52,455 nucleotides of DNA from Actinomycetes bacterium (GTDB lineage: Bacteria > Actinomycetota > Acidimicrobiia > Spongiisociales > UBA5794), in assembly GCA_023336815.1 (NCBI GenBank), contig JAMBLJ010000065.1, forward strand, positions 1 to 52,455, given 5' to 3'. Shown here in pieces: positions 7,498 through 27,201 of the stretch (position 1 is its first letter; each line of letters starts with the position of its first letter). The notes beneath the pieces are model-generated. The model saw only the letters and a list, made by a program, of their open reading frames with translations. It was not told where the DNA came from and did not search any database. The translations under genes and the position numbers were made by a program.

Positions 7498-7646
7498 GCT
7501 GGGCGATGCTCCTTGGCATCGTGGGAGTACTCGGGATCGCAACCCTGATCGTCCTCCTCATACTCAAACTCCTGGCCCGCCGCGGTTGGCTCTACCTCGA
7601 CCGCGAAGAACCAGAAGACAGACAGCAGACAGCAGACGACAGATGA
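7494..7646 (+). CDS. Small membrane protein, 50 aa
   Basis: ATGA overlap with upstream stop; MSWAMLLGIVGVLGIATLIVLLILKLLARRGWLYLDREEPEDRQQTADDR*; below the ORF-track length cut-off; C-terminus encoded by heptad repeat. Confidence 0.6.
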   Translation: MSWAMLLGIVGVLGIATLIVLLILKLLARRGWLYLDREEPEDRQQTADDR

Positions 7647-7778
7647 CAGAAAACAGAAAACAGAAAACAGAAAACAGACGAGGCCTGCCGACAGCTGCTA
7701 GCTGAAAGCTTCTTCCGCTAACGGCTTCTTCTGCTGATGTCTGCTGTCTGTCGTCTGCTGTCTGCTGTCTGCTGTCTG
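7612..7778. repeat. Heptad-period inverted repeat element (CAGANNN family), locus A
   Basis: Ten consecutive CAGANNN heptads 7612-7681; six on the opposite strand 7778-7737; perfect 25-nt inverted repeat 7619-7643 / 7747-7771. Confidence 0.95.
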
Positions 7779-7785
7779 CCGACCT

Positions 7786-8784
7786 CTATCCCAGTTTGCT
7801 ACACACCGTCTCGGTGATCATGGTTGCGACCACATACGGATCGGCGTTCGCGTTAGGGCGCCTGTCCTCGATGTACCCCTTCTTATCAACATCGACCATC
7901 CAGGGAATACGCACTGAGGCACCACGATCCGAGACGCCGTAGCTGAACTCAGACCAGGGTGCAGTTTCGTGGAGTCCTGTCAGGCGCTGCTGGATTCCCG
8001 CGCCGTAGTTGTCGACATGCTCCTGCGCCTTTTCACCAAGCGCCTCACAAGCAGCAATGATCGGGTCCCAGCTCTCACGCATGGCTTTGGTTGAGAAGTT
8101 CGTGTGCATCCCTGCGCCGTTCCAGTCGCCCTTCACCGGCTTGGGATTCAGGGTCGCCGAGATGTCGTAGTCCTCAGCAATCCTGTAGAGCAGCCATCGA
8201 GCGATCCATAGCTGGTCGCCCACCTCGACGGTGTCGACCGGTCCGATCTGGAACTCCCACTGTCCGATCATGACCTCAGCGTTGGTCCCCGAAATCGCAA
8301 GGCCAGCCTCCATACACGCCCACGTGTGGTCTTCGACAACGTCGCGGCCCCAGATCTCGTCGGCGCCGATCCCGCAGTAGTACCCACCCTGGGGTGCAGG
8401 AAATCCTCCGATCGGCCATCCGTGCGGTCTGCCGTCCTTGAAGAATGTGTACTCCTGCTCAAGACCGAACCATGGTTCCTGATCTCCGTACTGAGCAAGG
8501 GCAGCAACAGCAGCTGCCCTCGTGTTGGACTCATGAGGAGTCATGTCGGTGTTCAACACCTCGCACATGACAAGAACGTCGTCGCCACCGCGGATCGGGT
8601 CGGGAACGGTCTTCACCGGACGCAGCACACAATCCGAGTTGCTCCCTGGGGCCTGGCCGGTCGATGATCCATCGAACCCCCAGATGGGCGGCTCCAGACC
8701 ATCTCCAACGACCTTCGTCTTAGAGCGGAGCAGGGCAGTCGGTTTGCGACCGTCGATCCAGATGTACTCGGCGCGATACGGCAT
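7786..8784 (-). CDS. glnII: Glutamine synthetase, type II (eukaryotic-like GSII)
   Basis: MPYRAEYIWIDG...PIWGFDGSSTGQAPGSNSDCVLRPV...GGYYCGIGADEIWGRDVVEDH...WNGAGMHTNFST. Confidence 0.93.
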   Translation of the reverse strand: MPYRAEYIWIDGRKPTALLRSKTKVVGDGLEPPIWGFDGSSTGQAPGSNSDCVLRPVKTVPDPIRGGDDVLVMCEVLNTDMTPHESNTRAAAVAALAQYGDQEPWFGLEQEYTFFKDGRPHGWPIGGFPAPQGGYYCGIGADEIWGRDVVEDHTWACMEAGLAISGTNAEVMIGQWEFQIGPVDTVEVGDQLWIARWLLYRIAEDYDISATLNPKPVKGDWNGAGMHTNFSTKAMRESWDPIIAACEALGEKAQEHVDNYGAGIQQRLTGLHETAPWSEFSYGVSDRGASVRIPWMVDVDKKGYIEDRRPNANADPYVVATMITETVCSKLG

Positions 8785-8861
8785 GGGTCCTCATTTCGGG
8801 CAGGATGCGTGACTCAGCAACGGCATGACACCGTTCATGGTCACAAGGATGGGCCATGTCC

Positions 8862-8899
8862 GTTTCGTACCGGTAACTGCAATGTGAACTCTGTGTTAC
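8862..8899 (-). promoter_or_regulatory. Predicted GlnR-type operator, four 5-mers on an 11-bp phase
   Basis: Minus strand reads GTAAC-n6-TTCAC-n6-GTTAC-n6-GAAAC, matching gTnAc-n6-GaAAc-n6-gTnAc-n6-GaAAc except the second 5-mer; lies between divergent GS genes. Confidence 0.65.
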
Positions 8900-8940
8900 A
8901 TGACCCATCTCATCTGGCACTCGTCTCAGAAACCAATACG

Positions 8941-10299
8941 ATGGCACCACACACATATCAGGGAGGTCCCGTGGACCGACAGCGGGAATACGTGCTCAGC
9001 ACCGTCAAGGAACGAGGCATTCGCTTCATTCGTTTGTGGTTTACGGATGTTCAGGGCTTTCTGAAGTCGTTTGCGATCACACCGGCGGAGCTTGATATCG
9101 CACTCGAGGAGGGCGTCTCGTTCGATGGGTCTTCCATCGATGGATTTTCGCGATCTCATGAAGCCGACATGCTCGCCAAGCCGGATCCGTCAACGTTTCA
9201 GATCCTCCCATGGAAGAGCGGAGACGCCGGAGTGGCACGCATGTTCTGCGACATCGTGACACCAGCAGGGGATCCGTTTCCAGGCGATCCACGACATGTT
9301 CTGCGACAGAACGTCACACGGGCCGCCGAACTAGGGTACTCGTTCTATGTCGCCCCGGAGGTGGAGTTCTTCTACTTCGAGGATGCCTCGCCGGACCCCA
9401 AAGTGCTCGACAAGGGTGGCTACTTCGACCTCACACCCCTCGATGTTGCGCAGGAGTACCGCAGATCTACCATCGTCGCACTCGAGAAGTTGGGTATCCC
9501 TGTTGCGTTCAGCCATCACGAGGTGTCTCCATCCCAACATGAACTTGACCTTCGCCATACAGATGCTTTGACCATGGCGGACACGATCATGACGACCCGT
9601 CTCACGGTCAAGGAGGTCGCTATGGAACACGGCATCTATGCAACCTTCATGCCCAAACCGCTGCCGAGGGTTGACGGCAGCGGCATGCATCTCCACCTGT
9701 CTTTGTTCCAGGGAGACGACAACGCCTTCCACGATCCGTCTGGCGAATACGGTCTCTCCAAGGTGGCGAAGGGTTTCATTGCTGGCCTGCTGGCGCATGC
9801 CTCCGAACTGACAGCCGTCACAAACCAGTGGGTCAACTCGTACAAACGTCTCGTCGGTGGCTTCGATGCACCGATATACGAGACGTGGGCACGAAACGAC
9901 CAAAGCGCCCTTGTCAGAGTGCCAGCGACCAGGAGGGGCAAGATCGACTCGACTCGTATCGAGTACCGATCGCCCGATGCCTCATGTAACCCCTACCTTG
10001 CGCTGTCGGTGATCCTCGCCGCGGGGCTCGCGGGCATCGCGAACAACTACGAGCTCCCACCTGAGATGGGTTCTGATGTCCTCGAGATGACATCGGCACA
10101 GCGGCGGGAAGCAGGGATCAGACACATCCCCCACAACCTCAGCGAGGCGATCACAACGATGGAGCGCTCAGAGCTCGTCAGAGACGCACTAGGTGACCAT
10201 GTTTTCGAGTGGTTCCTCAGGAACAAGAAACGTGAGTGGACCCGATACGAACAGCACGTGTCTCGATACGAGCTCGAGGAGTACCTTCCGATCCTGTGA
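8941..10299 (+). CDS. Glutamine synthetase family protein, type I-like
   Basis: GVSFDGSSIDGF, APEVEFFYFE, DGSGMHLHLSL, RVPATRRGKIDSTRIEYRSPDASCNPYLAL; start ambiguous (ATG 8941 or GTG 8971). Confidence 0.9.
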   Translation: MAPHTYQGGPVDRQREYVLSTVKERGIRFIRLWFTDVQGFLKSFAITPAELDIALEEGVSFDGSSIDGFSRSHEADMLAKPDPSTFQILPWKSGDAGVARMFCDIVTPAGDPFPGDPRHVLRQNVTRAAELGYSFYVAPEVEFFYFEDASPDPKVLDKGGYFDLTPLDVAQEYRRSTIVALEKLGIPVAFSHHEVSPSQHELDLRHTDALTMADTIMTTRLTVKEVAMEHGIYATFMPKPLPRVDGSGMHLHLSLFQGDDNAFHDPSGEYGLSKVAKGFIAGLLAHASELTAVTNQWVNSYKRLVGGFDAPIYETWARNDQSALVRVPATRRGKIDSTRIEYRSPDASCNPYLALSVILAAGLAGIANNYELPPEMGSDVLEMTSAQRREAGIRHIPHNLSEAITTMERSELVRDALGDHVFEWFLRNKKREWTRYEQHVSRYELEEYLPIL

Positions 10300-10961
10300 A
10301 TCAGTCACCAACATTCGTAGGGGTCTTCCCCGAGGCGCCCTCGCCCTCGCTGACGTCAGCCTTGCTCGACGCGGGCTTCACACCTGTTCCCGTCGACGGT
10401 GTCGCCGATGCGAGAGACAAACAGCCAGAGGCTGGCTGGAGAGCCTTCGTCGTGGAGGTCGGCAGGGATCCCGACACCGCTGTAAACGTTGCATCCAAGC
10501 TCTGCGAGGACCTCGCAGCAGCTGTCCTCCTTGTCGTCGACCGCACGCTCACAGAAGATCTCATCGACCATAGGGACTTCGATGACTTCATCCTCACACC
10601 GATCGACGCCACCGAGCTACGGATCAGGCTCGCACGGATCGGTCTTCCGGCGAACACACAACGCGACGTGAACGTCATCCAACACGAGGACCTCGAACTC
10701 AACACCGATACCTACCAGGCGACGCTCGGCGGACAACCAACCGACCTCACCTACATGGAGTACGAGCTCCTCCGGTTCCTTGTCGAGAACTCACATCGTG
10801 TTTGGAGCAGAGAACAGCTGCTCTCCAGGGTGTGGGGATACGACTACTTCGGTGGCTCACGAACCGTTGATGTACACGTACGACGCCTCAGAGCGAAACT
10901 GGGCGAAGAACGCGCCTCCTGGATAACAACAGTCCGCTCCGTCGGCTACCGGTTTGGATAG
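10296..10961 (+). CDS. GlnR-like OmpR-family regulator with degenerate receiver domain
   Basis: GTG overlaps the GS stop; C-terminal winged helix LTYMEYELLRFLVENSHRVWSREQLLSRVWGYDYFGGSRTVDVHVRRLRAKL; receiver lacks acidic pair, phosphoacceptor region reads FVVEVG. Confidence 0.8.
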   Translation: MNQSPTFVGVFPEAPSPSLTSALLDAGFTPVPVDGVADARDKQPEAGWRAFVVEVGRDPDTAVNVASKLCEDLAAAVLLVVDRTLTEDLIDHRDFDDFILTPIDATELRIRLARIGLPANTQRDVNVIQHEDLELNTDTYQATLGGQPTDLTYMEYELLRFLVENSHRVWSREQLLSRVWGYDYFGGSRTVDVHVRRLRAKLGEERASWITTVRSVGYRFG

Positions 10962-10970
10962 ATCAGAAGG

Positions 10971-11056
10971 CAGACGACAGACAGCAGATGACAGAACCAC
11001 TGCCCCATCACCTGCCGCTTGTGCTCTGCTATCTGACATCTGTGCTCTGCTATCTG
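10971..11056. repeat. Heptad-period inverted repeat element (CAGANNN family), locus B
   Basis: CAGACGA CAGACAG CAGATGA CAGAACC 10971-10998; opposite strand CAGATAG CAGAGCA CAGATGT CAGATAG CAGAGCA 11056-11022. Confidence 0.9.
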
Positions 11057-26946: not shown

Positions 26947-27201
26947 CAGACGACAGCTGTCAGACGACAGACAACAGACAGCAGACAACAGAAGCAGAAG
27001 AGCGCTGTCAGCCGTCAGCCTTCAGAAGAACACGGCTGAGAGCCAACAGCTCACAGACAGCAGAGGAGGTCGGCGAGAGCGGAGTTTGTTCTCCGGGTTC
27101 CGCAGCTGACGGCTGAGGGCTTCTTCCGCTGCCTGAAGGCTGATGGCTGATGGCTTCTGCCGTCTGCTGTCTGGCATCTGCTGTCTGCCGTCTGTCCTCT
27201 G
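26947..27201. repeat. Long heptad-period inverted repeat element (CAGANNN + TCAGCCN families), locus C
   Basis: Left CAGACGA CAGCTGT CAGACGA CAGACAA CAGACAG CAGACAA; right, opposite strand, CAGAGGA CAGACGG CAGACAG CAGATGC CAGACAG CAGACGG CAGAAGC CATCAGC CATCAGC. Confidence 0.9.

Follow-up and report, generated by a model that had tools for sequence, protein, structure and literature searches.

A putative GlnR operator between divergent glutamine synthetase genes in uncultured Acidimicrobiia

Described GlnR boxes and the operator of the window

Most work on the GlnR nitrogen switch has been done in Streptomyces, mycobacteria and their relatives. The amtB promoter of Streptomyces coelicolor carries 5-mers spaced 11 bp apart, with a2 at the -35 position (PMC5826061), and the glnII site identified by ChIP in Streptomyces venezuelae is composed of GTAACACGGGGTTCAC and GCAACCGACGGGAAAT (PMC3087709). 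GlnR activates glnA in the species studied, and in other actinomycetes it acts as a repressor on some targets (PMC10704036). Other regulators act at the same places: GlnRII of Streptomyces, encoded close to glnII, binds the same promoters as GlnR (PMC3087709; PMC10704036), GlnR boxes serve as binding sites for MtrA, and PhoP is a competitor at glnA, glnII and amtB in Streptomyces (PMC10704036).

We analyzed a whole stretch of DNA of 52,455 nucleotides (hereafter the window), whose nearest named relatives are metagenome-assembled genomes (MAGs) of Acidimicrobiia. In Streptomyces glnA (SCO2198), glnII (SCO2210) and glnR (SCO4159) lie apart, whereas in the window a single operator (8862-8899, minus strand) is placed between divergent GSII and GSI-glnR. 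This segment is very probably one GlnR operator for two divergent promoters, the regulator itself being a product of the GSI operon, and would extend the GlnR nitrogen switch to uncultured Acidimicrobiia. In the literature searched (subscription papers excluded), no description of GlnR together with glutamine synthetase in Acidimicrobiia was found; the GlnR-type switch is known from Streptomyces, but we came across no account of the compact, two-way layout with its own regulator gene in this uncultured actinobacterial group.

The operator reads GTTTC-gtaccg-GTAAC-tgcaat-GTGAA-ctctgt-GTTAC on the plus strand and GTAAC-acagag-TTCAC-attgca-GTTAC-cggtac-GAAAC on the minus strand, the latter comprising the 5-mers a1 (GTAAC; 8899-8895), b1 (TTCAC; 8888-8884), a2 (GTTAC; 8877-8873) and b2 (GAAAC; 8866-8862) in the order a1-b1-a2-b2, with starts 11 bp apart. 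Re-reading of the sequence reproduced exactly what the first-pass annotation had stated on 5-mer starts (8862, 8873, 8884 and 8895), 11-bp phasing and distance to the GSII start at 8784 (78-115 nt). It had also rightly counted three of the four 5-mers as agreeing with GTnAC/GAAAC (15 of 18 positions of the S. coelicolor GlnR consensus, on which our score is based). A GlnR box is recognized by at least two GTnAC/GaAAC 5-mers with 6-nt spacing in 11-bp phase at promoters of nitrogen-assimilation genes; the operator shows this arrangement in the GSII/GSI intergenic region, and a similar array occurs at amtB in the same genome.

With its score of 15/18 the operator is the top-scoring site in the window, and this score was reached in 1 of 30 Markov shuffles. 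Given the composition, a 3-Mb genome would be expected to contain about one site with such a score, and the 187-bp intergenic region 8e-5. The genome scan, allowing at most three mismatches to the generic consensus, gave two places as against one with the reversed control, and by itself the generic consensus therefore carries little weight; matches to a two-site generic pattern were as frequent in the genome as those to its reverse. What places the operator beyond chance, as judged from sequence comparison, is its position and the same register conserved in about 40 relatives.

Other readings of the block were considered and rejected. A second, weaker match (14/18; 8840-8877) arises through an in-register GTCAC (8840-8844), but a longer array reaching 8840 is not tenable, as this GTCAC is not conserved and relatives have a GSII -10-like element in its place. 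TnrA sites follow TGTnA-n7-TnACA, NtcA sites GTA-n8-TAC and CRP/GlxR sites TGTGA-n6-TCACA. Compared by spacing with these consensuses, the TnrA-like reading is off by one in the spacer and is not kept in relatives; the NtcA and CRP/GlxR readings misfit in half-sites or spacing.

The flanking genes and the regulator

The genes next to the operator encode (i) the glutamine synthetase GlnII (GSII; 7786-8784, minus strand; 332 aa; NCBIfam NF041605, 630 bits, cut-off 500), (ii) a type I glutamine synthetase (GSI; 8971-10299, plus strand; 442 aa, GTG start; TIGR00653, 463 bits, cut-off 429), and (iii) a GlnR-like OmpR-family regulator (10296-10961, plus strand). GSI is the only protein above the GlnA cut-off in the assembly. 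It is devoid of an NLYDLP-type adenylylation motif, the region reading SDVLEMTSAQRREAGIRH.

The presence of a GlnR-like gene in the GSI operon, proposed on first reading, was borne out: the GSI stop codon and the GTG start of glnR share bases (GTGA; 10296-10299), and the three best PDB matches of the regulator are the GlnR structures 8hig, 8hih and 8hml (profile E 4.5e-50). A clade profile compared with PDB scored 173.7 bits against GlnR and 116.1 bits against RegX3. The winged-helix half aligns end to end with these GlnR-type orphan response regulators, whereas the receiver-like half is strongly divergent. Pfam recognizes only the winged helix-turn-helix (PF00486) and no receiver domain in this protein. 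Within the clade the winged-helix part is near-invariant, the receiver-like part strongly divergent, and the phospho-acceptor position holds no conserved Asp. The protein thus shows the two traits by which GlnR is recognized, an OmpR-type winged helix nearest to characterized GlnR and an atypical receiver domain. The glnR neighbors are a glutamine synthetase gene and a gene for a beta-propeller protein; no histidine kinase gene is adjacent.

Like the window regulator, GlnRII is encoded by an OmpR-type gene near glnII; the window gene is placed instead in the GSI operon, and regulators encoded near Streptomyces glnII match the window regulator mostly over the winged helix only. The PDB ranking, together with synteny, supports a tentative assignment of the 10296-10961 protein to GlnR rather than to GlnRII or another OmpR paralogue. 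At least eight further OmpR-type paralogues are encoded in the genome.

Conservation of the operator, gene loss and partner exchange

GSII of the window's type is encoded in 67 of the 99 genomes searched, whose flanks were taken and used for locating GSII, GSI and GlnR. In genomes with the divergent GSII/GSI-glnR layout, an unbiased scan for GTnAC/GAAAC recovered the array in the same register, with TTCAC or TTCAT as the second or neighboring 5-mer, and in a plain alignment of these relatives the operator is the strongest conserved intergenic block. The 43 sites listed were picked by a pattern fixing parts of the first three 5-mers, so that the selection itself accounts in part for the invariance of these. 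The fourth 5-mer played no part in the picking, and in 43/43 sites it has G at position 1 and A at positions 3 and 4. The spacer preceding it drifts freely, and the first spacer is partly conserved (A-C-A-G-n-G).

TTCAC had initially been taken for a mismatching 5-mer. This view had to be abandoned: nearly all relatives retain TTCAC, and it is also found in the S. venezuelae glnII site, whose GTAAC-n6-TTCAC and GCAAC-n6-GAAAT are of the same 5-mer types as the operator (PMC3087709). The glnII loci of Streptomyces, Actinomadura and Streptosporangium have the same order of 5-mers, and 59 of the 69 sites scored contain TTCAC; in Streptomyces the order, the spacing and the 10 nt to a CAnnnT hexamer are all as at GSII. 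Because the order is shared by these three genera and by the S. venezuelae ChIP site, the operator is, on the sequence comparison, the known glnII-type operator, of which TTCAC is a part.

A core pattern (GWAAC-n6-TTCAC-n6-GNNAC) searched in 138 genomes of the order gave 73 matches, compared with 2 for the reversed pattern. Some of these genomes had served to derive the core pattern, and weight is therefore placed on the reversed control and on families not used in its derivation (f4, f8 and most of f2). Of the 73 matches, 61 lie directly beside a glutamine synthetase gene or amtB; the others are unplaced or chance-like, including a repeated element in one genome (G029). The window's genome contains exactly two matches (0.12 expected), the operator and a site (C115:4891-4917) upstream of its only amtB, where GAAAC is followed after 10 nt by TACCTT. 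The first-pass annotation had suggested looking for the pattern near amtB, glnK and nirBD; amtB proved to be a candidate target, nirBD did not emerge as a target, and a glnK gene was not detected, the PII family (PF00543) having no match in the 94%-complete assembly, in which amtB is present. Using a looser composite score, convincing arrays were found at 6 of 19 amtB copies of GlnR-positive relatives versus 0 of 5 in GlnR-negative genomes, which is no more than suggestive; with arrays at only 6/19 copies, amtB is not a general target. Upstream of the match at one amtB locus (L231, genome G028), at about 220 to 160 nt, there are six GlnR-like 5-mers with 11-bp spacing, a row resembling the three boxes described at amtB of S. 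coelicolor.

GSI and glnR are both present or both absent in 29 of the 29 genomes tested for both. The box occurs in 15 of 17 GlnR-positive genomes (one weak) and in none of 12 GlnR-negative genomes with GSII (Fisher 1.8e-6, genomes counted with relatedness ignored; they are not independent, and MAG incompleteness can mimic gene loss). GSII without the box is found in pair-lacking genomes (G006, G008, G025, G033, G044, G046, G015, G031, G068 and members of family f6). The idea that the genus of G008 (g7) uniformly lacks the module was dismissed, since its member G039 keeps GSI, glnR and the box. Two GlnR-positive genomes, G057 and G069, have no recognizable box at GSI. A MAG of SAR202 (Chloroflexota; L195) encodes a GSII 71% identical to that of the window and has no box there; gene transfer or a binning error is possible.

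The partner across the box is exchangeable. In families f4 and f8 it is a housekeeping-type glnA (family checked on f2 copies), not GSII, in 12/12 loci examined, and some loci read as GSI-only turned out to have this divergent partner. In these loci the partner-side hexamer is TA(C/T/G)AA(A/C), not CAnnnT, still at 10 nt. The same operator is found in f2 ahead of a separate glnA, and in f7 GSII and GSI are co-directional behind a single box. The operator was seen at housekeeping-type glnA in f2, f4 and f8 (L254-L267 and L278-L286), with a -10 of the TACAA(A/C) type. One operator with exchangeable glutamine synthetase partners offers a naturally occurring test of the way in which an activator reads two promoters at the same time.

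Predicted promoters, mode of action and alternative explanations

The -10 elements of both promoters are predictions from conservation. On the GSII side, CATCCT (8846-8851, minus strand) lies 10 nt downstream of b2; the second base of this hexamer is A in 39/43 relatives, and its sixth base is T in 42/43. Since the -10 is exactly 10 nt from b2, a2 is placed at the -35 position of the predicted promoter. The same 10-nt geometry is found at glnII loci of Streptomyces (e.g., CAGGCT), Streptosporangium and Actinomadura, and the arrangement of operator, 10 nt and -10 is kept across the class boundary. Compared with S. coelicolor amtB (a3-b3, a1-b1 and a2-b2), a2 is likewise at -35 in the same 11-bp phase (PMC5826061), but four conserved sites and two predicted promoters stand against six sites. 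On the other side, the predicted -10 of the GSI-glnR operon is TACGAT (8937-8942, plus strand), 37 nt from the outer edge of the operator; TACGAT/TACCAT is found at 37-39 nt in most divergent-layout relatives. Transcription would be predicted to begin near 8839 on the minus strand and near 8949 on the plus strand. The operator had at first been placed upstream of GSII; this location is correct, but conserved -10-like spacing marks both promoters rather than that of GSII alone.

According to the proposed mechanism, GlnR protomers would sit side by side on one DNA face along the 11-bp-phased 5-mers. Toward GSII, b2 would end 10 bp before the -10 with a2 in the place of the -35, as in the Streptomyces amtB and glnII boxes, and at this promoter, devoid of a -35 of its own, bound GlnR would bring in RNA polymerase; given the close Streptomyces parallels, activation of GSII is the most likely outcome. 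Toward GSI-glnR, the array would span about -50 to -87, its distance from TACGAT being conserved, and this spacing makes an upstream activator role of GlnR the most likely one, with less certainty than on the GSII side. As glnR follows GSI with overlapping stop and start codons, the circuit would include its own regulator, and autoregulation via the GSI-glnR operon is a sound inference. The regulon of the window's genome would also comprise amtB, and the response is presumably to nitrogen limitation.

A chance resemblance, for which the expectation of about one 15/18 generic match per genome could be cited, is refuted by cross-species conservation, the reversed-pattern control and the neighborhood of the matches, and its probability is virtually nil. 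The initial reading of a GlnR-type operator is in turn supported by conservation in relatives, co-occurrence with glnR and recurrence at amtB. The block could be a real OmpR-family operator read mainly by an MtrA- or PhoP-like regulator, with GlnR secondary, as the binding of GlnR boxes by MtrA and the competition of PhoP at glnA, glnII and amtB in Streptomyces (PMC10704036) and the eight or more other OmpR-type paralogues might suggest; we regard this as very improbable, since genomes lacking GSI-glnR lack the box as well, though they keep OmpR-type candidates (according to first-look lists), and since the box adjoins glnR in most genomes. Moreover, competition by MtrA or PhoP would not exclude GlnR.

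Given GlnR as the reader, it may be asked whether both promoters respond. The operator could serve only the divergent partner (GSII or glnA), with GSI-glnR merely adjacent and independently transcribed: the a1-b1-a2-b2 orientation and the 10-nt, -35-replacing geometry aim at the partner gene, and isolated GSII copies away from GSI (G077 and G095) carry the box too. The distance to the GSI -10 is nevertheless held at 37-39 nt in most relatives, the exception, L091 (27 nt), being shorter by about one 11-bp step, and it stays at 38-39 nt in 10 of the 12 loci with a different partner, which renders service to the partner alone unlikely, though well worth considering. Rather unlikely, too, is that GlnR activates GSII but represses or only modulates GSI-glnR in negative autoregulation, as could be argued from the reversed orientation of the box and its long distance (about -50) with respect to GSI and from GlnR repression of some targets in other actinomycetes; glnA is activated by GlnR in the species studied (PMC10704036). 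The box overlaps neither the predicted GSI -10 nor the start, and repressor sites usually overlap one of these.

Because GSI and glnR strictly co-occur, what GlnR senses is a question that can be put to the test. The two might form an obligate sensor-regulator pair, in which the GSI encoded with glnR, devoid of the usual adenylylation motif, reports glutamine status directly to GlnR; this is improbable, and in Bacillus a feedback-inhibited glutamine synthetase follows an analogous logic with its unrelated GlnR. If true, the operator-GSI-glnR module could be combined with one or another neighboring effector synthetase (GSII or glnA), and the joint keeping or loss of GSI and glnR and the missing PII gene would be explained.

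Apart from the operator, the window contains intergenic repeats with a 7-bp period (CAGACGA/CAGACAG; 7612-7789, 10966-11056, 26977-27185, 38880 and 40988). The exact motif GACAGCAGACGACAG has 13 matches in these repeats (0.3 expected) and was not found in the loci fetched from relatives; at 7619-7778 the repeats form 45-nt inverted arms.
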